From assembly GCA_009760885.1 (NCBI GenBank), contig CM019713.1, forward strand, positions 8,306,266 through 8,370,265: 64,000 bases of DNA, in the 5' to 3' direction. The DNA is from Achatina immaculata. Taxonomy: Eukaryota; Mollusca; Gastropoda; Stylommatophora; Achatinidae. A program made the position numbers and the translations under genes. Under the pieces are notes generated by a model that was not told the origin of the DNA, made no database searches, and saw only the letters and a list, made by a program, of their open reading frames with translations. Below, piece by piece: positions 3,001-44,400 of this stretch (position 1 is its first letter; every line of letters begins with the position of its first letter).

Positions 3001-6000
3001 CCAATAAGTTCAGCCATTGGCACATCCTGGTGATTTACCATTTTTCAAATTCTTTATATATATGACCTTGAAGTGCATAAACAGAAGGAAAAGGAGTAAA
3101 GAAGAAAAAACAAATGATACTTATGTTCAGTATGGCAGGCATTTCTTTGCTTGTTTCACAATTAATTATTATTCTTCTTACATCCTTCCCATGCCGTTAA
3201 ATGTCACATAGGGCTCGCATGGTAGTTCAGCAAGTTTTCATGTTTTTGGCGAGCTTTTCGACCTCAGCAAGGGATTTTATGCCTACTAAACTGATCTCTC
3301 TTAACAATGTCTTCTTTAGAGTTTCACGTGGTCAGCCACCTTTTCTTTGGCCTTTTGTGTTTCACTTGATAACTTGTTTTAGGATTCTCTGACTGTTTCT
3401 TCTCATCACATGACCAGTATATGTCCATCTCCTTTTCTGATCACCCATGAGATTATTATATTATTATTATTTAACATTATTATTGCTGGTGGGGAAATTT
3501 GCTTCTGATCTTGATACTTTCAAAGCTTCAAGAACAACGCTGCAGATCTTACAGAAACCAGCAGGCTGACTAAAAGTCACAGGAACACCTAGTGACAACA
3601 AGAAAACTGGAGGGACAAAGGGACAGAGGAAAAAACAAAACAAGATGTGTGATGGACTAAAAGAGTTTTACAGAGCAAGGCCCAACATGCATATTATAGA
3701 AGGATCAAAGGATAGATGGTTGTGGAAATAGTGGTGACCAATGCCTGATTGGCATGGATGAGAGAGAGAAGGACTGAACGTCCTTTAAAAAATTGATTAC
3801 ATCAGAAAATAATGTATGACATTTTACAGTATTTCAGAACAAAAACTGTGTCGGAATTGATGACATGTTAAAATTGTTTCTCATTCATGTGGATGTCAAG
3901 TAATTACTGTAGACTGTTTTGCTCTCTTTAGCTCACTGACAATCATGCAATCCTCCACTGTGCCAAGGCAAAGCGTGATGATACTGGCAAGTATCAGTTG
4001 ACACTGAAGAACAGTGAAGGTGCTGAAACACTAAATGTCAATGTCAGTGTGCTAGGTAAGCTGATTTTTATTTTGTTTTGTTTGTTTGCCATCCTTGCCA
4101 TTGGTGACTCCTCTGCTTTCTCAGCCTGCTTGTGTTTGCGTCTGTTTTATGTTCTGTCCATCTGCCTTTTTTTCATGAACTTTCTTTATAGAACAGTGTG
4201 TAGAGAGTTCTGAAAAAACATTTTAAAATAGTGCTTCATTTAAAATATCTTATCAGAGGAACAAGTTTGTGCTCAGTATTAGAGGGAGTCAGTATTCTGG
4301 CAGCAGGACTTATATTTCCTCCTTGTAAGATGCACCAGCTCATAAGGCGCACATATACACTGGCAGGTAATATTTTGAAACAAACCTAAAGACTCTATGC
4401 TTCCCATAGACTTCATAGCCTTTCACTCAACAGGGTTTTGATCCAAGATTGTATGCATTTTCCATCTGAATTTCTTAACTGGACAGGCTGAATATCATCA
4501 ACTTGGACTTAGAACAGTCATGAGTGTCAAGTGTTAGTCTAGTCCTGGTAACCTACACCCGCAAAGCCTACCAAAACCTAGCCATCGAAGTGTAGGATGC
4601 AGGATAATTTTTGGAGAAGTTTTTTTTTTTTAAGGAAACCAGTGCATCTTATATGATGGGAAAGACAGTAACTAGTTTTTTTTTAGTCTTTATTTTCCTT
4701 TCTCTCATAAGCATGTCACAAAGAAGTAACTGCCATTTACTGTGAGCACCACACAAATGAGTTATATAGTTTTAATTTTTCCAAACAACTGAATATGTAT
4801 TAATTGTTTAATAGACAGGCCAGGGATACCACAAGGGCCATTGGAAGCCAGTGATATTGATGGAGAATCGCTCACTCTCACATGGAGACCACCAAAGGAT
4901 GATGGCGGTGAAAAGATTGCCAATTACATAGTGGAAAAGAGAAAGGTAAGTGTCTCTCACCTCTAGCTGACCCAGATGAAGATTATTACCTGGACTCTGA
5001 ATCTTCTGTATGACTTTGCTTCTCCACCATTTTCACTCCAATCTATAGAATTTTTCACGTTTTCTTAAAGAACCATGAGAGTCAAAATTTCAGCTCCCTT
5101 TTGCTTCAGATCACCTGTTACTTATCCCATTATGATTTATTTTAGCATCCTCTGGAATCTGCATGTAATATTTTATAACCTTCAAGACCATTTTTAGCAT
5201 TTGGAGATATATTTGTTAAATCCACTTTGTTTTCATGCAGTTTTTTTTTTTGCATAGTAATTACCTGTATAAATATCACATAATTATTTTCTAAATTTAA
5301 CATAAAACAATTAAAGTCCAGCAAATTAGCTAAAGTTATAGATGATAGGCAAAGACGGCAAAGACTTGAGGACTGTAAAACATCTATACTGGCAGCAAGA
5401 AGCAGCAGTTCGAGTTGAAAATAGAATTGGAAAATACCAACCTATAAAACAAGGGGTGCAACAAGGATGTGTACTATCTCCAGACCTTTTTTCTCTGTAC
5501 AGCGAGAATATTCTAAGAACAATCATCACAGAACCAGGCATAAAAATTGGAGGATACAATATTAACAACCTTCGGTATGCTGATGACACAGTACTGATAG
5601 CTGAGAACCAACAAGACCTGCAAAATCTCTTGGATAAAGTCGCCAGAGAAAGTGAACAGAAAGGCCTTACTTTGAACATCAAAAAGACAGAGACTATGGT
5701 TATATCTAAGAAACAGAATCCACCAGCATGCAGTATTAAATTAAACGGAACCATTCTAAAGCAGGTGCAGAAATTCAAATACCTTGGAGCAGTAATAACT
5801 TCAGATGGGAAATGCAGAACAGAAATTAGGAACAGAATAGGTCAAGCAAAGACTGCATTTCAGAGAATGAGAAACATATTAGCTAACACATCTTTATCAA
5901 TGAATGTTAGAAAACGAGTCCTAAAATGCTATATTGAACCTATCTTGTTATATGGAAGTGAATCATGGACAATAGGCAAGTCTGCACAAAAATCATTGGA

Positions 6001-9000
6001 AGCAGCAGAAATGTGGTTTATTAGAAGAATGTTGCGAATCCCCTGGACAGCAAAAATAGCTAATGAAGAATGTATGAGAAGAGCTGGAGAGACAAAAAAC
6101 CTTGTCAGAAAGATAAGAGAGAGACAATGTACTTTCATAGGACATGCAATGAGAAGAGGGGGCATTGAAAATATTATAACAGGAAAAATAGAAGGAATAA
6201 GATCAAGAGGAAGACCAAGAGAAATGATACTGGACAGTCTGACGGGATGGTGTGAGAGGAGATCACCAACTGAACTGATGGCCTGCATGAAGGATCGGGT
6301 ACTCTGGAGAAGCATAATAGCCAACGCCGGTCGGCACGGCACCTGATGATAATGATGATGATATAGATGATGTCATTGTTATGTATCCTTGAACCTGTGA
6401 GCAGGATGTTCTTAGCAGCACATGTCAGTAGGAGTAGGAACATGCTTGTCATGTTGTGTTGGGAATGCATTACAGTGGCTGTGCTTCTAGACCCAAAAGT
6501 GGACACAGAGAGCAGTCTCTGTGGTAGACTCCACCACTGTAGGGACCACAGAAAGACCAGTCATTAGCCAAGCTCAGCTTGCTACTAGCAGCACCAGTGC
6601 AGAGTTGGGACAGGCATTTATCTTAACTTTAGTTTGGCTGCTGTGACAACTGTACCACCACTCTAGCACAATCATTATTGCTCTCAAAATTGTAGATAAA
6701 TTAGTTTCTTTTTGAGTACAAATACAAAAGGTTTAAATAAGTGTTTCTCACAGGGCATTTATCAGGTACTATGTGTGTTTACTGTGGATTTTTAGAGACA
6801 TTATTCTATTAAGTCATTCAGTCGTGTTCTCCAGGCTGGAACTAACAGGTGGCAGAAGGTGAGCAGCTTTTTGTCCAAGCCAACCTGTCAAGTTAGAAAC
6901 TTGGAGCCCGGCACCAAATATGAATTCAGGGTTGCAGCTGAAAATCCTCTTGGTGTGAGTGACTATTTGGAAACAGAAACTCCAATTCTGGCCAAGCTGG
7001 CCTATGGTTAGTTATCATTAACTGATACTTATTAGTCTGGTCATTGTATTGACATGTTATACTGTGTTGGTCATGTAAAATAAAATAGTTGTACGGCACA
7101 GGTATCCAGAGTTAAATGCTAAAATTCTTTTCATAAGATATTGCTATTTGTGATACAGATTCTGATTTAGACATAATTCAGATGGAAATGCAAAGACTGA
7201 TGAAAAAAAAGGCTATTATTTGCCATTGCTAAAGGGAATAAAGATTATACACTTATACACAAGTGACTGAAACACAGACTTGTAGCCATGAAGTTTTGTA
7301 GCAAAGTATACATTTTTTTATTTAGGTTATGGCATTTAATATTATTTGTATTAGCGTTCATTTTTTTGTATTATAATGGTGAACAGTTTTAACATGAACA
7401 AAATGAAAGATTTTTTAATGGATTTGTCATAATTTACTTTACATTATGATGTTTGTACATTACTTATTCACAGTAATGTGGTCATGTGCAAATTTGCTAC
7501 AACTAATTATTGTTCATTACTTTATTACTGAGTTTCATGTATTTGAATTTGGAAATGTGCTGAATTAGTTAAAAGACATATAATGAATAACTGATAAAAA
7601 AAAAATACCAGCATCACAGGAGATGAATGCTGTAAATCCTAAAACTTATATTAATGATGATTAGATATAAAATTAAAATAATGTAAACAAAATGAATGTT
7701 TGAGGATGTAAAAATCTACAGCTTTTTTCTTTCTTTTTAACTAAGGTAAAGGTAAGGTAAAATTCTCGTTTCCATGTCTTTAAGGCATATTGGGGATGTG
7801 GTGTTAGGCCTGCAGTTCCAAGACCATCAGCACATGAAGGTGTGATTTTAACTAAGAGAGGATAAAAATGAGGTGATAAGACATGTGAATAAAAAATATT
7901 TTCATTTATAAAATAAATTCATTAATCTCCTTCCCTTTTCATAAATCAGTGCCCTCGAGCCATTTCATTATTTCAGTATAAAAATAAATGTGTTATTTCA
8001 CTGATGCATTATGATGAAGTTTATTTTCTTCAGTGATAAGGAGAGTTTTATTATACATTAACAAACATATTTATTATTTCTGGTTCACATATTAATTGAA
8101 GTGCGACATATTTAACACATACAACCAAACCACTTATTCACAAATGATGAAACTTGTACCAAATCTTTCTATTTCATTTGCTGATTATTGACAGTTGAAA
8201 TAATATATAGACCTCATTATAATGACATGTTTAAAGATTTAAATGTCATTGCTTTAAATGATGCATGACATCTTTGAAGCAAACATTATGTAAGTCTGAG
8301 ACCAAACCTTATATAATTTTGTTGAAGAAGTATAGATTTGTAATTATTTGCTTCGGATCTTGGATATCAAATTAACAGAGTTCATTGAAGTGTAAAAGGT
8401 AAAACCCCCATTTCCATGCCATTAATGCATACTGGGGATATGATTTAGATCCATTTTCAGGACCTTTGGTACATGAAAGTGTAAATTGGTTAGTATCATT
8501 CCTGGCTGTATTTACCTTCCAAAATTTCTCTAGTACCAATTTTTAGAGGCTGGGTGAACCTTAGGCCTTTTTGGTGTGTACCAAAAAAATCTAAACAACA
8601 ACCTTCTCATGGATGATCAGAAAAAGAAGATGGACATATTGGTCATGTGCTGAGAAGAAACGATCAGAGAATCCCAAAACAAGCTATCAAGTGGAACACA
8701 CAAGGCCAAAGAAAGAGGTCGACCACGTGAAACTCTAAAAAGGACATTGTTAAAGAGGCCAACTTAGTGAGAATAACATCCCTTGATGAGGCTGAAAAGC
8801 TCACCGAAAACGGGAAATCTTGGCAATCTACCATGCGAGCCCTATGTGACATTTAACGGCACAGGATGGATGTAAGATGCAATAAGAAAAAATGCCACTC
8901 GCTGGGACTTGAACCCTCAGATTAGTAAACTGAGTGCTTACTCAAGTGTACATGATTTGTTTTTTTTCAAACAGATGCTCCACATGCTCCAGGTGCACCT

Positions 9001-20400: not shown

Positions 20401-23400
20401 GTTCCCTTTATCAGGCGTGCTTAAACACTAGTTTAACTTTGGATTCAGAAGAGCTCTGACTAGTTAATTGAAAAGTTACATCGTGTTTCCAATGAAAGAA
20501 AGTTCGAAACCTTATAGGTCTGTGTCGGTGGGAGCAGCATATACCAGAAAATGCCTTTCAGGGCTGGTGCAAATTGAAACAGTTAATGTATTAAAGGGAT
20601 TATTTGTGTTTTTAAACATATGGAAGATGATTATTTTTATATAATATTCTTTCCTAGATATATACTTAACTTCCATTTATTTTCTTGTATGTTGTTTATA
20701 TTTGTAGAAGACAGCAATATCAGAGTGTCATATATTACTTGGATCATAAAAATAAAATGCTTACTGTTCTTTTGTGATAAATCTTGTGTGCTATCATAGT
20801 CTTGTTTGGCTGTGGTTCATTGGTCCTGATGTCGTTATCTTTCCACCAGTATCAACAGGCAGGTATTTATTTTAACTATGACTGCCCTTGTTCATAAATA
20901 GGTTGTATCTGATTAACTAAAGGATCTACTTGCAGCACACTAATTAGTTATATCTTACATCCTTCCCATTCTGTTAAACATGACAAAGGGCTCGCATATT
21001 ATAGTTCACCAAGTTTTCCTGTTTTCGACAAGCTTTTCAGCCTCATCAAGGGATTTTTTATGTCTGCTAATTTGGCCTCTCTTAACAATGTCCTCTTTAG
21101 AGTTTCACGTGGTCGACCTCTTTTTCTTTGGCCTGTTGTGTTCCACTTGATAGCTTGTTTTGAGATTCTCTGACTGTTTCTTCTCATCATATGACCAATA
21201 TATGTCCATCTCCTTTTTCTGATCACACATGAGACAGGCTGTTGTTCACTCATCTGCCTTATCTCTAGGTTGTTCTTGAATTCATTCCACTTATTATTTA
21301 TATCCACTTATTAATTATACAGCAGTGACCAAAATAATTATGATGATCTGAATGAAAGTTCAAGGTTCAAAATTGAGACTCCGGCGTCATTTCTTTCAGG
21401 ACAGCTCCATATATGCTGCTAATAGTTCCTGTCAAATTTTTAACTTTGAACCAAAATATTTCTACAGTTATTATTTTGTTTGTTACTGCATATTTTAGCA
21501 TTCCTTAAATAGCACTCTATGAACAAAAATGGGACATAGTTAAGCATTATAATGTACACATTTATTTCAGGTTATGTTGTTGAGAAACGAGAAAAGGGCA
21601 TGTCACTCTGGACAAAGGCTAATGAGTATCCAGTCATCGACAACACTTTTACTGTTTCTGGGCTGCCAGAAAATTCAGAGTATGAATTTCGCATTGCTGC
21701 CACCAATGCTGCAGGCACAGGGGAGCCAAGCCTACCATGTGCTCCAATCAAGATCAAAGAGAGGATTGGTAAATCTTTTTTTAATAGAAACTAAAGAGAT
21801 AAATTATGGATATTGTGTTGTTTCTAGTAAAGAGTGCAATTATTTTGTGTGTTTATTATCAGAATTTCAGTTCTTCTGCCTCCTTACAACTGTGAACTTG
21901 AAATGCCTTTGTGAAGATCTTGAAACAAAGACATTATATTATAGGGAGGTAAGGTAAGCTAAGGTAAAGAGGAAAGCTGTCCTATCTTGCCATAAGGACA
22001 GCTACAGGATTTGTTAGTACCCATATTTTCCTTGACTTGTCAGCACAGTAGACAGATTTTGTCAGCCATCATGCCTTATTGCCTTTCTGACCCCGGATCC
22101 AGACAAAGCCAGATAATCTTTTTCTACAGCAAGGTGACTGGAGCATGACCTTGTTCAACTTCCACATATAAATGCAATAATGGCTACATGAGTCAGTACT
22201 GCAAGCGGCCTTACTTGGAGGAAGAAAATTTTACACCTGTAAATGGTTCACTGTCTTTAATGGCAATGTCATAACTTTAGAATAGTCATCCTTATTTCCA
22301 TGGGGTTTCAGAACATCATTAATCTGTGCTTACAACAAGTTGAAAGTCAAAGATGTTCTGACCTTACACCACAAAAGTCACAGTTTTGTATAGAGGTTTA
22401 TGAGAGCATTAAATGTCTAGAGCAGATGTATGTATGTATGTATGTATATGTATATCTGTCTGTCTGTTGTCTAGTACAGCAGTAACTTCTATAAAATTCT
22501 CAGTGACAATATCAGATATTTCATGGACTCAAGGCAAAGCATAAGAGAACAGAATAATTAAGCATAGTCTGAATAAAGAAATAGCAGAACAAATGTTCAA
22601 AAGGCTCCATTTTCCATCGTCCAGTGAACAGAAGGAAAGAATTGTTATTATAAGTCATAAATAAAATATATTTCAAGTATTTTAGCATTCCTGGAAATCC
22701 TTTTCCGTAGCCTTTTGATACCAACTTGCAGCTGCAGTTACTGTGCTTGGCAACAGTGTTTCGTATATGTCATAAATTTATGCCTGCCAATTCAATTCAT
22801 TAAAAGCAGACATTTTAATGCACACACACAAAATTGTAATATTATGTGTCTATGTGTTTGTTTAGCATTATATTTTTTCCAAATTCTTCAGCTGGACATG
22901 CCCCAGAGTTTGTGAAGAAGCTTCACAATGTGAAGGCTCCACTTGGAGGTGATGCCATTTTCAGTGTAGAGGTTTCAGGGTCACCAACTCCAGAAGTTTT
23001 ATGGTAAGGCAGAAGAGTGAAATTTAGGGACATCGCTTTACATTGTCCTTTAGTTGCTTATCTCAGCAGAGTTTGAAACATTTGCATATTTGCTAATTTT
23101 GCAATATTGTAAGTACTTATTTAGCAGTCAATGTAACATTTTGTGTATGCGAAGTATATAACAGAACTACTTTAAAATGTTTCACTTTTTGTTATGGGAA
23201 TGTTTATTGAGAATTAATTTCATGTAATGTTCACATAAAAAACAATAAACATTCAAAAACAGATTTGTAAGTGTACAGTTTTATATGAAACACAGACTTC
23301 AACAGATATTAATACTGTAATAAACTTACCATATTCAGTGTAGTACAAAGATGGATAATTTTATTAATTAAGATGTGATAGCAACCAAAACATTGAATTT

Positions 23401-35400: not shown

Positions 35401-38400
35401 AACTATGAGGTTTATAGTAGTTGGAATTTGAATGACCGAGTAAAAGTAGATCATGGTCTGCTTTGTCTCCATGGTTAATGTACCTATAATAATCATTTTA
35501 CTTACATTTAAAATAAAAATTTACCTTTAAAACAAATTTGCCTTTAAATTTCGACAGATGCCCCTGATTCACCAGGAGTTCCCAATGTAGAAGAAGTAGG
35601 TGGAGATTTTGTCAGCTTGACTTGGGCCAAACCAAGGTCAGATGGTGGTGGGAGGATCACTGGCTACTGGGTAGAGAAGAGAGAGCATGGGACCGAGAAC
35701 TGGTCACGAGTCAACAGTAATCCATGCATCACGAACATGATCAATATTCCAAATCTTATTGAGGATCGTCATTATGAATTCCGTGTCTTTGCAGAGAATG
35801 AGGCTGGTATGAGTAAGCCATCCATGGCTAGCAACAGTGTTAAGATCAAAGACCCACATGGTGAGTAACCCTATTTTTATAAAACTAGTGCAAACTTGTA
35901 TTATGTCAGTGATGTGTTTCTTTATCATTCCAGTAAAAAAAGAAATGCAGTTCAGAAATAGAAAAAAAAAAAAGAAAAAGCAGAACTATTGCAACAAAAA
36001 CCAAAACTCTGTATGATGTATCTGCATACAAAAATACAGTTTTCTTATTTTCATTGGTCATCTATCTTCACTGTGATGCCAGGCTGAAGCATGATGTGTC
36101 TTGACCAAAATGTACATAACTGTGGCACAATGCTATAACATCATTGTGAGGATGAACACTGAAGAAAAAAAAAGAAAATAATCTGTCCTTGTGTGCTGCA
36201 TTGTATATCTTGCTTGGTTATGTCATCAGTCTAGTATTTAGCCTACACAGTGTCAGCCGCACAGAGCCGCGCCGAGCTGCACAGCGCGGGCTGCTGCTGT
36301 TGCGCAGGCCAACCGTTCTTTTTGCGAAAAAGCGCTCTCGTGTTCCGTGCGTGGGGAGACAGGCTTTCGCTCCCTTCCCAGACGGCGAGAATTAAGGTGT
36401 TTCGATGCAGAAGCAAGTGGTTTATCCATCGAGCAAAGCATGTAAACGGCCAGCCAGCCAGGTTCGTGCTAACGATGTAGTACGGTTTTGTCGACCGATG
36501 GTCTCGAAGTTGGTCCATCTCTCGCAGAGAGTATCGAGTCTGCAGTATGTAACGTGTATTGTTTGTGGGTGGCCAGGCTTTCTTCTCCGCTCGTTAGAAC
36601 AGAGAGAGCCGCCCCCGCCGGTTAAAGGAAATGAAACGCCACCGGGGTCGAAAGGGATCCGCTCTGAGCAGAGCGCTGTCTCCCTTGCCCCGCGTCGGTC
36701 TGTCGGCAGATATCCGACAAAGGTTCGGTGAAGAAAGCTATCTGGTTGATCCTGCCAGTAGTCATATGCTTGTCTCAAAGATTAAGCCATGCATGTCTAA
36801 GTTCACACTGTCTCACGGTGAAACCGCGAATGGCTCATTAAATCAGTCGAGGTTCCTTAGATGACACGATCCTACTTGGATAACTGTGGCGCTGTTGGCG
36901 ATATTCTTCGGCTGTCGTGCGTGGAGCGGTGCTCCTCCTGGCCAACGAAGAAAAGTACAAATGGGGTTGCCGCGCAGCATCACTGCGGAAAAGGTGGTAG
37001 AAAGGATAAAGCGAAGCAAACAGTCAAATCATGGCACCTCTGATCTGGAGGTCAGCCACGTCCTGAGTGCAGTCCTATCGGGTGAAATGCATGAATCGGC
37101 TTGTCCCAGAGGTTAAGACACTGCTGGCGAGACTCTTCGAATGCCGTGCGTGGAGTGAAGCTCCTCCAGGTCAAGGAAGAAAATGCAGAAAAGAAATAAA
37201 GGTTGCTGTGTGGTGCCAATGTGAAAAGGTGGTGGAAAGGATAAAGTGAAGTTTAATCGGTATGTCCAATAGTATCGCTGACATACCATGGCACCTCTGC
37301 TCTAGAGGCCGGCCACGTCCAAAATACACCTACACTGGTGAAGTATGCCTAAACCGGCACACACCAGGGGTGGAACATGATGGCTAGACATGTCATGCCA
37401 CCTCCGCTCTAGAGGTCAGTCACGCCTGATATACACCCATACTGGTGAATTTTGCCTAAACCGGCTCACGCCAGGGGTGAATCTTGAAGGCTATGCATGT
37501 CACAGTACCTCTGCTCGAGAGGTCAGTCACATCCCAAACACGCCCATACTGGGATAATATGCCTAAACTGGCTCAACCCAGGGGGGATTCATTGATATCC
37601 TAAACACGTCGAGGTCTTCCGGTGAGAAAGTCCAGCTCTAGACTAAACTTATATCTTATATCCTTCCCGTGCCGTTAAACGTCACATAGGGCTCGCAGAG
37701 TAGTTCGCCAATTTTTCCTGTCTTCGGCGAGTCTTTCAACCTCATCAAAGGATTTTATGCCTGTTAACTTGGCCTCTCTTAATAATGACCTCTTCAGAGT
37801 TTCACGCGGTGTGCCCCTTTTTCTTCGGCCTGTTGTGTTCCACTTGATAGCTTGTTTTGGGATTCTCTGATCATTTCTTCTCATCAAGTGACCAACATAT
37901 GTCCATCTCCTTTTCCTCATCACCTATGAGACTGGTTGTTGTTCAGTCATCTGTCTTATCTCTGCACTGTTCTTGAATTCATTCCACTTGATGCCAAGTA
38001 TTTTCCTTAGGCATTTGTTTTCAAAAGAGTCTAATTTCTTTTCTATTTCTTTAGTTGTCTTCCAGCTTTCGCATGCATAAATGAGGATGGATATTACATT
38101 TGAATTGAATAGTCTTAACTTGGTTTTTGTGCTTATAACTTTTGAATTCCATATGTTCTCAAGATTCTTGAAGATTGATGCTGCTTTTGCAATTCTGATC
38201 CTAACTTCCTTTCTAGTGTCACCATCCTGGTCTATGTAGCTGCCAAGGTATGCAAATTGATTGACTTCTTCAATATCTGTCCCTTCTATGTGTATTTTTC
38301 CATTTTGATTGATGGGAATTTTCATTATTTTTGTTTTGTCCTTGTTAATTTCAAGTCCTATTTTGCTAGCCAGTGAAGACAGGCTGTCTGTTTTTTCTTG

Positions 38401-41400
38401 CATGGAATTCACATTATTACTGATAAGAGTTATGTCATCAGCAAAATCAAGATCTTCTAGTTGGGTCCCATGTACCCAGTCAATACCTGTGTTACCTGTG
38501 CAGCATTTTTTCATTATGAAGTCTATTGTAATCCCAAAAAGTAAAGGAGACAGTATACATCCTTGTTTCACACCTGTTTCAATCTGGAACCATTCACTCA
38601 TCCCTTCTTCTGTCTTGACTGCACAACCATACCCATTGTATAAGTCCTTAATGATGTTGACAACTTTAGATGGTATTCCATATAGACATAAAATTCTCCA
38701 TAATGAATCTCTGTGTATGCTATCAAATGCCTTTTTAAAATCTATGAAGTTCAGTATTAATGGTTTCTGCTTTTCAATATGTTCTTCAAGTATTATTCTG
38801 AGAGTAAAGATCTGGTCGAGACAGCTTCTCCCTTTTCTAAATCCTGCTTGTTCTTCTCTCATTGCAGTATCCACTATATCTTTGAGTCTATTCAAAATGA
38901 CCTTGCAAAATACTTTTGACACAACTGATATTAAGGTTACTCCTCTCCAGTTGTTACGGTCACTAAGGTTGCCCTTTTTTGGTATTTTAACAATGATTCC
39001 TTTCTTCCAATTAGAAGGGACCTTTTCTTCTTTCCAAATCTTGTTAAACATTCTCTGTAGTTGTCTCATGTTGTCACTATTGACAGCTTTTAGCATCTCG
39101 GCTGTTATTTCATCTTCACCTGCAGCTTTGTTGTTAGCCATTAAATTCACTGCTGTTTCAATTTCATGCAATTTAATTTCATCTAGGTTGACATTTAGTT
39201 GTGGGGCTGGTAAGTCAGTTTCAAGGTTTAACAATTCTTTTGGGTGTGGTCGATTGAGTATTTCATGGAAGTGTTCAGCCCATCTTTGCTTTTGGTCTTT
39301 ATTTGATGTTAATAGTGTTCCAGTTTTGCTAAGGATTGGTCTTTCTTTAGATGTAATAGTACCTGTTAGCCTCTTTCGTATGTTATATAAAGTTTTGCTG
39401 TCTCCTGTTTTTGCTGCTTTTTCTGCCTCTTTCACCATATTGTCTATGTATTCTCTTTTATCCCTTCTAGCTGAACTTTTTACTTTCTTGTCTATGTCTT
39501 TGTATTTTGCTTTTGCCGAATCTCTTTCATGATCTGCTTTTGCATTCAACATGTCTAATTTGACTGCTCGTCTTTCATGTATATACTTCCATGTTTTATC
39601 TGATATCCATGCTTTTCTATTTGGTTTTTCCAATACAGCGCTTACTTTTGCTGCTGTGATTATGGCTGTGCTGTAAGAATTCCATAACTCATCTATACCT
39701 ATCTCCTCAACTTCACTGGGTGTTTTGGAATGATTGGCAAGTTCCTGATTGAAATTAATGTTAGTATTTTCTTCTTGTAGGCTGTGGCTGTTTATCTTTC
39801 TGTGTACTGATTTCTTGTTTTGACTTTTCAATTTTAGTTTTATTTTCCCTATGCACAGGTTGTGATCACTGTTGACATCTGCACCCCTATAAGCCCTTAC
39901 ATCCATGAGAGATGTTCTGTATTGCTTTCTAATACAAAAATGGTCTATCTGGTTTCTAGTTCTATCATCTGGAGATATCCACGTTGTTTTATGTATCTCT
40001 TTGTGTGGGAATATTGTGCCACCAATGACCATGCCCTCTGTTAGACACACTTCAATTAATCTTTCTCCATTCTGATTAACCATGTCAATTCCTTCTTTCC
40101 CCATCACTTTTTCAACGTTGGTATTATCCTTCCCTACCTTAGCATTGAAGTCCCCCATAGCAATTAGGATGTCGTGTTTAGGGACTTTGTTGATGATTTG
40201 TTGTAGTTGGTGATAGAAGTCGTCTTTCACATCATCATCTGCATCATTCGTGGGTGCATAACACTGTATTATTGTCATTCTTCCGTGTCGTAGGTTGTAT
40301 CATGCTCTTATTATACGACTGTTCACCGGTTCCCATTCTACAAGGCTCTTTGCAGCTACATTTGACATAATAATGCCCACTCTGTCTCGGAATTTACCGT
40401 CATTTCTGCCTGAATGTATAATTAACTTACCGTTTTCCGCCGATCTTTTACCTGCTTCTGGCCATCGCATTTCGCTGATGCCCAGTATGTCTAGATGGTA
40501 TCTCTCCATTTCTTTGATGACCTGAGTAGTTTTTGTTGGTGCTGCCATCGTTCTCACATTCCAGAATCCAACCCTGTCACATGTTTGGGGCCGACGAATG
40601 AGCTCTTCGGAGTTGGCATCCCTGATGCTCGGTTGGTTTCTCTGCGAGTTTCCATAACGATGTCTTTTTTTCCCATCTGGAGTTGCCTCTAGACTAAACT
40701 GGTGCAATGAAAACCACGGTGTCATGCAATCCACTTCAGAGACCCACCAAGAATACAGGCTAAAGCCCTGCGATACTCTGAACCCCTTGTGGTCCTCTCG
40801 TAAATCTCATGTGGTCCTTTCGGGGACCACACAGGAGACCACCGGACCTAACGAGGACCACAGGCATAAATTCAGTAGGATCACAGTGCGGCTTTGGTGG
40901 TAGAAGCGAACGAAGAAGAAGAAGAAGAAGAAGCCTACACAGCAACAGGAAACCACTGTTGTAGCTCCCAAGAACAATTATACATATTCAGAGAATAAAA
41001 GAGAGACGATGTACTTTCATAGGACATGCAGTGAGAAGAGGGGGCATTGAAAATAGTATAACAACAGGAAAAATAGAGGGAAGAAGATCAAGAGGAAGAC
41101 CAAGAGAAATGATACTGGACAGTCTGACAGGATGGTGTGAGAGGAGATCACCAACTGGGCTAAAGGCCTGCATGAAGGACCATGTACTCTGGAGAAGCAT
41201 AATAGCCAACGCCAGTCGGCATGGCACCTGATGATGATGATGATGGGCGAAACAGAAGGTTCTTCTTACACTTTCTTTCTGATCAGTCAGTCAGCCTGGT
41301 TCATAAACTGTTATTGTTAATTTCTGGCCATCCAGTCTTTAGGATGTAATAAGGAATTCAATGAGCAGTGACAGCTTATCATGACACATGCCTTCCATTT

Positions 41401-44400
41401 ATCAGATTCAGTAGGGCAGACTATCCTGTCAAGAGTCTAGTGACATTCCATATTCTTGTCAGTTTTTTTATAGATATGTCTTGCTTTGTTTGTCTGTTTT
41501 TTTATGCCAAGTGTTTTCAAAGTGGCAGATTTTTAAAACTTACTGCATGTTTCCTCTATCTGCCAAGTGTGAGAGACAAATATTCAGTAAAGGTAAATCC
41601 TCATTTCCATGCCATTAACTCTTCCCATGCCACAGAAAAAAATGCGGACATTCCCATCTGTGCCACACAAAAAGTGCAGGTCTTGATATGTTTAGGGGGT
41701 ATAGTTGTAAAAGTGAATGTACAAAGTATTTCCACTTTAAAAATATACATATTATGCATGAAAATAGTTGTAAATGTAAGAAGATTTCATAAATGAAGAG
41801 TTTTTTTAGAAAAAAGAAGTAGTGTGATGATTTTAGCTGATAATTGTGTACTGCTTACCATCGGCGATGCCGAGACATACAATGTTTACCATCAGCGATT
41901 TCCAGATCTACTTAAATTTTCATCCAATCTCATCGTGTGGTGGCATTCTCACTAAAACAATGTCTGAAGTAACCTTCTAACTATTTCTTCAGTTATTATG
42001 TCTAGATCTACTTGGGGTATATTCAGGAACGGTGGTCTGGTCATAGGACATGTCTTAAGCCTCCAAAATCACAATAAATATTGAAATTTCTCGGTTAAAA
42101 CATCAATTTCACTTGATTGTTAGCCACGCTTTGGATTGAACTATGAAGGTCCCCAGACATGTGCAGATAAATCGTGTACAATAAAAATTACAATGGTTTT
42201 ACACTGCAACGAAACAAACCTTGCTATAACGAGGATGGCAGACTAACTGGAAGACCTTGCTACAGCGTTGATGGCAGGGAAAGAGTTAAGGCCCATATTT
42301 CCAAGATGATCTGCACATGAAAGTGTGATGTGGTCAGTATCATGCCTGGCCGCATTTATGTCCCCGGATTTCTATGGTACCCACTTTTAGAGCCTGGATA
42401 GACCTTGGGGCCTTTTTGGTGTGGTGGTACCAGAAAAATAATCCAGTATTTCATAATCTGCCTTAATATACAGTATATTTGATTTAAGCAAATGTAATAC
42501 CAAAATATTCACTAAGTGTAGTATCGTTACTATGGACAGTTGTTTTATTTTTTTTTTTTTTTTTGGTACTAGTAAACTGAAAAAGCTGTTGATCCAAAGT
42601 GACATTAATGAGTAACATTCTTTTCTAACAATAAAAATTTGTACGAATTTCAGTTGTGAATTTTTAAGACTGATATTACTGTTGAGCCTAAGATTCACTG
42701 ACTTTATTATCTTATATACAAATTTCTGAAACATGTGATTTTGTGGAACTTACAGTGCACTTTTTTAAAAACAATTTTGATGTCATGAATGATCTGAAAT
42801 GTAAATATATGTCAGATTTAATATTCACTTTTTAAAAAAATCATTGTGAAGGGACAAATATAATGATTTTTTACAAATTTGTTTCTGCAGCTGCCAAGAC
42901 CCCAGAATATATCACAAGTTTGAGGAAGGTCCAAGCAGTGGAAGGCAGATCAGCACAGTTTGAGTGCATTGTGTCAGGGAATCCCAGCCCTGATATTCAG
43001 TGGTAAAGTTTGATGCAGTGATTACATTCATATTTATAATAACAGTGCTTGTCTCTCATAGTAATTATTGGCAATTCAGACCCAGCCTTAGGTGCTTCAG
43101 ACATCTTGGTAGGTACTTGCCTCTTTCTTGGAGTTCAGAAAAGAAAAGCTAGGCTGGCTGCTGCCATCTCTTGTCTGAAGGCTGGCTGCTGCCATCTCTT
43201 GTCTGAAGGCTGGCTGCTGCCATCTCTTGTCTGAAGGCTGGCTGCTGCCATCTCTTGTCTGAAGGCTGGCTGCTGCAATCTCTTGTCTGAAGACTGGCTG
43301 CTGCCATCTCTTGTCTGAAGACTGACTGCTGCCATCTCTTGTCTGAAGGCTGGCTGCTGCCATCTCTTGTCTGAAGGCTGGCTGCTGCCATCTCTTGTCT
43401 GAAGGCTGGCTGCTGCCATCTCTTGTCTGAAGGCTGGCTGCTGCAATCTCTTGTCCGAAGGCTGGCTGCTGCTATCTCTTGTCTGAAGGCTGGCTGCTGC
43501 CATCTCTTGTCTGAAGACTGACTGCTGCCATCTCTTGTCTGAAGGCTGGCTGCTGCCATCTCTTGTCTGAAGGCTGGCTGCTGCCATCTCTTGTCTGAAG
43601 GCTGGCTGCTGCAATCTCTTGTCCGAAGGCTGGCTGCTGCTATCTCTTGTCTGAAGGCTGGCTGCTGCCATCTCTTGTCTGAAGACTGACTGCTGCCAGA
43701 TGTACATACGGACATAAGTTTATACAGACATATATTCATATATAAACATACACATATATGAAAATGCTGTCATTAATATGTCAGAATTCTGGCAAACTTT
43801 CTGTTACAGGTACAAAGGAGTGCGTGAGATTTTTGACAATGACAAGTATGAGATTATCTCAGAAGGCGATAAACAGATCTTAGTGATAAAGAATGTCTAC
43901 GGGGAAGATGCAGATGAGTATTCAATTCGTGCCACTAACAGAGGAGGAAGTCGTGTGTCCAGGGCTGAACTGGAAATCAGATGTAAGAAATCTTTAATAT
44001 GATAAAACTCAACAAACTGTGTTATGATATAACTCAACAAAAACTCAACAAACTGTATTATGATATAACTCAACAAACTATATTATGATATAACTCAACA
44101 AAGTAGATGGTTAGCTTGCAGATATATAACACCTGAAAGTCTAATGTCATAAGATATTTAGCTTCATTGTTTTAAACAAGCAGGATTTACCTAAGTTATA
44201 CATATAAGATCTGAATGTCTGATGTAGTAAGAAATTTAGTTTTACCATTACAACCAGACAACATTCAGAGACTTTACAAAAGCTTGTACTTTTTAACTTG
44301 TGGTTTAAATAAACAATTTAACAATTTAACATATCAGATATAGGGCAGTGCATGAAACATCACACACACAAAAGTATGAATTTTCAGTTCAGATATTTCA

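Follow-up and report, generated by a model that had tools for sequence, protein, structure and literature searches.

A dispersed retroelement family of Achatina immaculata with a putative pre-rRNA leader and 18S rRNA at its head

Introduction

How does a retroelement come to carry the beginning of a ribosomal RNA (rRNA) gene at its 5' end? The question is raised by a locus at 36251-40932 of a 64,000-nucleotide stretch of the genome of the gastropod Achatina immaculata (hereafter the window; G000:C3:8306266-8370265, within a 1.65 Gb assembly of 145 contigs). A leader, nucleotides (nt) 1-151 of 18S rRNA, a repeat-rich sequence (hereafter the body) and a (GAA)n tail follow one another here. In an initial annotation of the window, the whole was said to lie between 10-bp duplications at 36241 and 40933, and GCCTACACAG is indeed present at 36241-36250 and 40933-40942; leader, 18S segment, repeat sequence and tail had likewise been placed correctly. 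Three origins were offered: a novel dispersed family resembling short interspersed nuclear elements (SINEs), read-through from an element inserted in 18S at nt 151/152, or a one-off template-switch chimera.

The analysis described herein brings the first two proposals together. Probably, a (GAA)n-tailed retroelement inserts into 18S genes by target-primed reverse transcription, is transcribed by read-through of RNA polymerase I (Pol I), and the resulting leader-18S-body RNA is retrotransposed to other places. The evidence comes from the dispersed copies, from the body as a module of its own, and from the positions at which 18S gives way to the body. The proposed read-through from 18S is largely supported, with the correction that 151/152 is one of 18 tested breakpoints.

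A dispersed family with a common junction

The genome was searched with 261 bases across the 18S/body border, and 40 of the 2614 first-look candidates were scored. Each of the 40 (the window copy and 39 others) carries the head/body junction, matching no fewer than 253 of the 261 query bases at 95-100% identity. The one-off chimera is thereby ruled out, and the proposal of a dispersed SINE-like family is largely confirmed by the many copies with the same junction. All scored copies were retrieved, 38 of them with both ends within the locus, and exact target-site duplications (TSDs) of at least 8 bp (8-16 bp) flank 29 of these 38.

The 5' ends fall mostly into two classes. Among the 39 aligned copies, including that of the window, 17 begin at leader position 1 (GTCAGCC), another four begin there with internal differences, 13 begin at 61-65 (GTTCTTTT) and five elsewhere; the copy alignment excludes L001 and L021, whose loci lack an unbroken tail. 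Both start classes occur intermixed across the clades of the body tree, so that the same lineages gave both.

The family is non-coding and dispersed, and has TSDs and a 3' tail like that of long interspersed nuclear elements (LINEs). No open reading frame (ORF) longer than 136 amino acids (aa) touches copy L030, no tRNA was found by ARAGORN in L002, L007 or L030, and small-subunit (SSU) rRNA was the sole RNA family matched by Rfam in L002 and L007. An internal promoter for RNA polymerase III (Pol III) was not seen in the head of the copies scanned, in which a cryptic one may be present. Among the retrieved sequences, no LINE shares the 3' end of the family, and thus a partner LINE was not found there. 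As separate observations, L002 and L008 occupy, by eye, the same insertion spot in an apparent RTE-like LINE reverse-transcriptase ORF, and L016 seems to be inserted within another copy of its own family.

The copy in the window

The features of the window copy are as follows.

36241-36250, no strand: left target-site duplication GCCTACACAG, read from the sequence
36251-36738, plus strand: leader, putative 5' external transcribed spacer (5' ETS), directly abutting 18S nt 1
36252 (GTCAGCC, position 1) or 36315 (GTTCTTTT, position 64): where most family copies have their 5' ends
36739-36889, plus strand: 18S rRNA nt 1-151 (152 counting a shared C), as aligned to SSU by Rfam in sister copy L002
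36890-37647, plus strand: first part of the body, two tandem units of ~230 bp, then a 107-bp minisatellite at 37280-37584
37634-37647, no strand: left duplication of the inner LINE, CTCTAGACTAAACT, 14 bp, read from the sequence
37648-40686, minus strand: RTE-like LINE, a secondary insertion outside the family structure, from its reverse-transcriptase ORF and its own duplication
40687-40700, no strand: right duplication of the inner LINE, CTCTAGACTAAACT, 14 bp, read from the sequence
40701-40909, plus strand: 3' part of the body, alignable in sister copies
40910-40932, plus strand: (GAA)n 3' tail, common to family copies
40933-40942, no strand: right target-site duplication GCCTACACAG, read from the sequence

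The left TSD may be 11 bp long (AGCCTACACAG) and is preceded by TTT; the leader measures 487/488 nt. In the sister copy L002, Rfam aligns the same 18S segment to its SSU model, beginning at position 1 (E 4.7e-27); the window copy's own segment gives a weak 17-nt match (E 0.99). The interval 36251-40932 had been taken for a retroelement, and its ends, head and tail bear this out. It is not a single element, as it encloses a LINE in antisense orientation that has a 14-bp duplication of its own. This LINE is absent from all six sister copies aligned and is therefore a later insertion. The headed element proper is 36251-37647 plus 40701-40932, and the window copy lacks ~300 bp of body relative to these six sister copies.

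The body as a retroelement of its own

The body was also used as a query. The body alone gave 5700 candidates and an older body (L061) gave 5942; 40 were scored in each search, and upstream flanks were read at 20 of the 40 scored places per search. Unrelated sequence, hereafter head X, precedes the body in 18 of the 40 flanks, 18S in three and other body sequence in two; 17 have no recognised head. The 5' border is constant, (C)GCTG[T/C]TGGCGA, and several older copies start instead at the corresponding point of the second tandem unit. Six of the eight headless copies whose 3' side was retrieved have TSDs of 9-14 bp and start 0-3 nt from this same border; in the other two, no target duplication was found. 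Because headless copies have TSDs and a constant border, the body moves by itself with a defined 5' end: it is a retroelement of its own, ~1.3 kb long.

Head X (~210 nt; L118 from ~820, L071 and others) forms a strong hairpin at its end, where it meets the body (z -2.79); by eye alone, it shows a possible tRNA-like A/B box region. A ribozyme like that of hepatitis delta virus was considered at the body start, where two helices might cross. By eye, one pair is lost in older copies, and folding yields a plain hairpin, leaving the idea unsupported. Nor was any Rfam ribozyme, such as one of the R2 type, matched in the family sequences scanned.

Many breakpoints within 18S

A junction at nt 151 alone was abandoned once further junctions had appeared. 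A first pattern for intact 18S, with GGTAATTC, gave 7 matches only, all of them variant family copies; other copies with longer 18S (e.g., L120 and L124) read GGCAATTC in its place. A search with 31 bases of mid-18S sequence (~586-616) gave 194 exact matches, 100 of which were listed, all on contigs C1-C12. Of these, the first 24 were read, four on both sides and 20 downstream only, and in 23 of the 24 the 18S continues into the body or another family insert. At the remaining locus (L130, C1:61457188-61458518), the 18S ends at nt 621 and is followed by non-body sequence. The breakpoints are distributed as follows.

First set, intact insert start: 18S nt 22, 151, 223, 285, 333, 384, 437, 544
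Second set, intact insert start: 18S nt 669, 709, 719, 806, 878, ~893, 996, 1239, 1353, 1588
With truncated body: 18S nt 668, 1014, 1647, ~1665 (L124)

Nine of the 24 mid-18S loci share the breakpoint at ~893; their ends at 891-893 were treated as one site. L124 carries most of 18S (SSU score 1507 bits, the match running into the body). Given the 18 tested breakpoints with an intact insert start, together with the dispersed copies bearing TSDs, the headed family is not site-specific and does not have the fixed site of R2 and other R-type elements.

Leader sequence lies upstream of 18S in 14/14 of the non-151 fusions whose upstream side was read. It starts at position 1 in five (L065, L120, L121, L124, L126) and near 64 in three (L064, L068, L069). 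In addition, three of the 24 copies read have nested heads. In L137, 18S runs to 719 and is followed by leader position 1 to 18S nt 223 and then the body; in L133, 18S to 893 is followed by leader 1-163 and the body; in L136, 18S to ~997 is followed by a truncated head X and the body. They are read as an already headed, a leader-headed and an X-headed element, respectively, that entered 18S by insertion and later left it again.

Some copies show further rearrangement. In L063, the body is interrupted soon past the junction. L066 and L067 (C16:27455064 and 27456924) are two old headed copies, nearly identical, that lie 1.86 kb from each other and point the same way. The pair, in which the 18S piece is partly repeated before the body, possibly arose by tandem duplication. 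In L122 (C6:17509170-17509900), ~200 bp starting with an A run split an old leader copy just before 18S.

Breakpoints compared with insertion sites

If the body had been inserted in an 18S gene, the last ~12 nt of 18S would be the left duplication and would start at an endonuclease-type site. The dispersed insertions (n=34) define such a site: T at -2 in 32/34, T at -1 in 25/34 and A or G at +1 in 31/34, with a modal duplication of 12 bp. A site matrix was trained on these dispersed TSDs alone, one AT-repeat site being excluded; only 28 of the dispersed sites were used for the retrained matrix applied to the first set and for the test of the second. The site pattern was first noticed in the first set (8 breakpoints), and the second was mapped afterwards. 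L066 and L067 (unclear breakpoint), L105 (same breakpoint as L068) and L130 (no body) were excluded from the tests, and L136 and L124 are outside the test sets.

In the first set, none of 100,000 random draws from 18S reaches the mean matrix score (1e-5 without site 151). After retraining it was reached in 0/20,000 draws, with the signal peaking at shift 0, and worst-case microhomology gives p = 5e-4. TT lies 10-14 nt upstream in 6/8 against a background of 22.6% (binomial 0.0025). In the second set, this holds for 10/10 against 27.9% (2.9e-6) and, with three truncated inserts added, for 13/13 against the same 27.9% (6.2e-8). The matrix gives p = 1e-4 at shift 0 and 0/20,000 at +1 and +2 for this set; since the signal peaks there, its BLAST-derived ends are probably 1-2 nt short. 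To judge from sequence, the breakpoints look like DNA insertion sites rather than broken RNA ends.

Variation in head and body

Singletons were taken as mostly post-insertion changes and variants in at least three copies as differences among source copies. Singletons are about as frequent in leader 64-449, which lies outside the search query (110/386 sites, 0.285), as in the body (0.22-0.27, e.g., 79/323). Shared variants are rare in the leader (13/386 sites, 0.034) and in 18S (1/151) but frequent in most of the body, at 10/71 (639-710), 45/323 (711-1038) and 34/273 (1641-1915). The 18S part is within the query, so its low diversity is partly due to search selection. Distances in the leader track those in the body (Mantel r 0.60-0.74, 0/999 permutations as high). 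Such a pattern would be expected of sources in an rDNA (ribosomal DNA) array homogenised in their ribosomal part, and is no proof of them.

Mechanism and rival explanations

The route proposed for these copies would begin with a (GAA)n-tailed non-autonomous element that inserts at T-rich sites, 18S genes included. A copy within an 18S gene would be transcribed from the rDNA start, giving an RNA of leader, 18S up to the insertion, and body. The enzyme of a putative partner LINE, priming at the (GAA)n tail, would then copy this RNA into other loci. Its 5' ends would lie at positions 1 and 64, either as the Pol I start or as early processing sites, and sources at 151 above all, and at ~893, probably persisted and gave many copies. 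The leader would accordingly be the 5' ETS, Pol I the transcribing polymerase, and the source copies would lie, or have lain, in rDNA.

Several observations weigh against this account. None of the loci read showed a recognisable intact rDNA unit, whether carrying an insert or free of one; unplaced contigs were sampled as a possible source of rDNA, and 1.5 kb from each of 20 of the 145 contigs gave no Rfam match, one of them (C37) reading N. The 40 scored copies were chosen by similarity to the head/junction region. Six of the 14 fusions (L063, L066, L067, L122, L123, L125) have no start at position 1 or 64: their leaders start elsewhere, are diverged there or were partly retrieved. Breakpoint positions are uncertain by 1-2 nt, those of the second set being BLAST ends. 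Breakpoints 285 and 437 lie outside the site rule, and 669, 719, 806, 996, 1588 and 1647 score as ordinary in the matrix at shift 0, single sites such as 719 and 1588 no better than ~1/3 of all positions. The shared variants of body 1039-1640 (34/601; 0.066 and 0.047) are nearer those of the leader (0.034), and 18S is also poorer in singletons (25/151, 0.166). Finally, distances in 18S and body are weakly correlated (r 0.16-0.29; 10 to 117 of 999 permutations).

Other explanations call on the same data. The leader of dispersed copies may itself hold enough of a Pol I promoter, with 64 as the start and 1-63 as the core promoter, to drive transcription at any locus, giving a SINE-like family that needed rDNA just once. 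This would agree with the abundance of junction 151, with starts at 1 and near 64, and with the correlated distances of leader and body. Yet copies starting at ~64 would lose their promoter and still make up about one third of the copies examined (13/39), and the many separate junctions speak of repeated capture. Moreover, leader and 18S are kept uniform at the source level, yet within the copies they decay like the body (leader 64-449), as expected of sources in rDNA. We regard such self-driven spread as unlikely.

Template jumping, by which a reverse transcriptase at the 5' end of the body RNA would jump onto broken pre-rRNA, perhaps at a border hairpin, appears more doubtful still. Variable 18S ends joined to a fixed body start are what it predicts, the hairpin between head X and body would offer a place for it, and breakpoints 285 and 437 show no insertion-site signal; chimeras of 28S and other RNAs with LINE-1 (available text of PMC13174262) and template jumps of R2 (available text of PMC3414825) are documented. 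However, most breakpoints lie 10-14 nt downstream of endonuclease-type DNA sites, which is unexpected for RNA ends, and the inserts include 5'-truncated bodies as well as a whole headed element (L137) and a truncated head X (L136). An identical junction in many copies also requires a transcribed source, and no head from another abundant RNA was recognised in the 40 flanks, which were read by eye without an RNA-family search. A single ancestral leader-18S-body fusion, followed by 18S deletions of differing extent, would explain why leader and body are common to all types. It is nevertheless barely credible, given that one deletion edge would nearly always fall exactly at the body start and the other ~12 nt from an endonuclease-type site, and that nested heads need extra events.

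Insertion into 18S genes followed by read-through is therefore preferred. In its fuller form, for which we hold a more guarded preference, a non-site-specific SINE-like element would gain Pol I transcription by random landings in 18S, its read-through RNAs would seed copies headed by pre-rRNA, and sources at favoured sites (nt 151 and ~893) would persist in the array, be kept uniform by homogenisation and found large families.

Relation to known systems

SINEs headed by 5S rRNA are known as SINE3, and in LINE-1 (L1) 5' transduction a transcript that starts outside the element carries upstream sequence along. Such carriage is common to L1 transduction and the present family; here, in contrast, the same multicopy gene is involved each time, mostly from one of two start points. 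No element headed by 5' ETS-18S was found in the searched Creative Commons-licensed literature of PubMed Central, a set outside which most subscription papers and bioRxiv preprints lie.

SINEs headed by 28S rRNA (Longo et al. 2015, as cited in the available text of PMC13174262) and rRNA-derived SINEs of Lepidoptera (PMC8010984, PMC3272025) have been reported. Like the family described here, rRNA-headed SINEs are non-coding and dispersed, with TSDs, a LINE-type tail and an rRNA-derived 5' part, whereas the present head consists of a putative 5' ETS leader and 18S of many lengths. SINEs span 100-700 bp according to the available text of PMC10886601, against ~1.9 kb or more here, and no Pol III head was found in the leader-18S form. 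With R2, R1 and the R2 SIDEs (short internally deleted elements), as described in the available text of PMC3414825, the family would share co-transcription with rDNA, and the use by a short non-autonomous form of an enzyme borrowed from another element. Unlike them, it is not site-specific, no R2-like ribozyme was recognised by Rfam, and its copies leave rDNA carrying pre-rRNA instead of cutting it off. Among the LINE-1/RNA chimeras of PMC13174262, 18 contain 28S rRNA in the text available; there, too, an rRNA piece is fused upstream of a retroelement, but as scattered events, whereas here the sites are of DNA insertion type and some junctions are amplified. In its mode of spread, the family resembles a SINE that, like R2, would draw on rDNA transcription, with neither the fixed site of R elements nor the Pol III head of ordinary SINEs.

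Other features of the window

The inner LINE has an ORF of 784 aa (37924-40278) with the domains RVT_1 (E 1.2e-37), DUF6451 and Exo_endo_phos_2; from this domain set, we take it to be RTE-like. Its relatives are 43-59% identical among the 120 matches listed, with Littorina and Batillaria, as well as fish, lancelet and Schistosoma, among those named. Three further 3'-end pieces of this LINE lie at 20948-21292, 3176-3452 and 8591-8878 (82-85% identity). A second LINE type has an RVT_1 ORF at 5342-6346 (plus strand), and ~41010-41245, just right of the headed element, resembles its end by eye, with a (GAT)n tail. A 28-bp minisatellite of 19.6 copies, open on the minus strand, occupies 43151-43698.

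Outlook

Most retroelement heads have been traced back to small RNAs made by Pol III. The present family points to another supply of templates, namely Pol I read-through of copies within ribosomal genes, and to a concrete way for a SINE-like element to acquire new heads repeatedly. If the fuller account above is true, retroelements born of Pol I would be free of the Pol III length limit. It would also explain the dispersed 18S pieces of this genome, such as the 194 exact matches to one 31-base stretch, and such pieces could mislead surveys of rDNA copy number and amplicons. Since each head seems to preserve the pre-rRNA leader as it was at a particular time, the copies could serve as a fossil record of the leader and, should it be the 5' ETS, of transcript starts at positions 1 and 64 as well.

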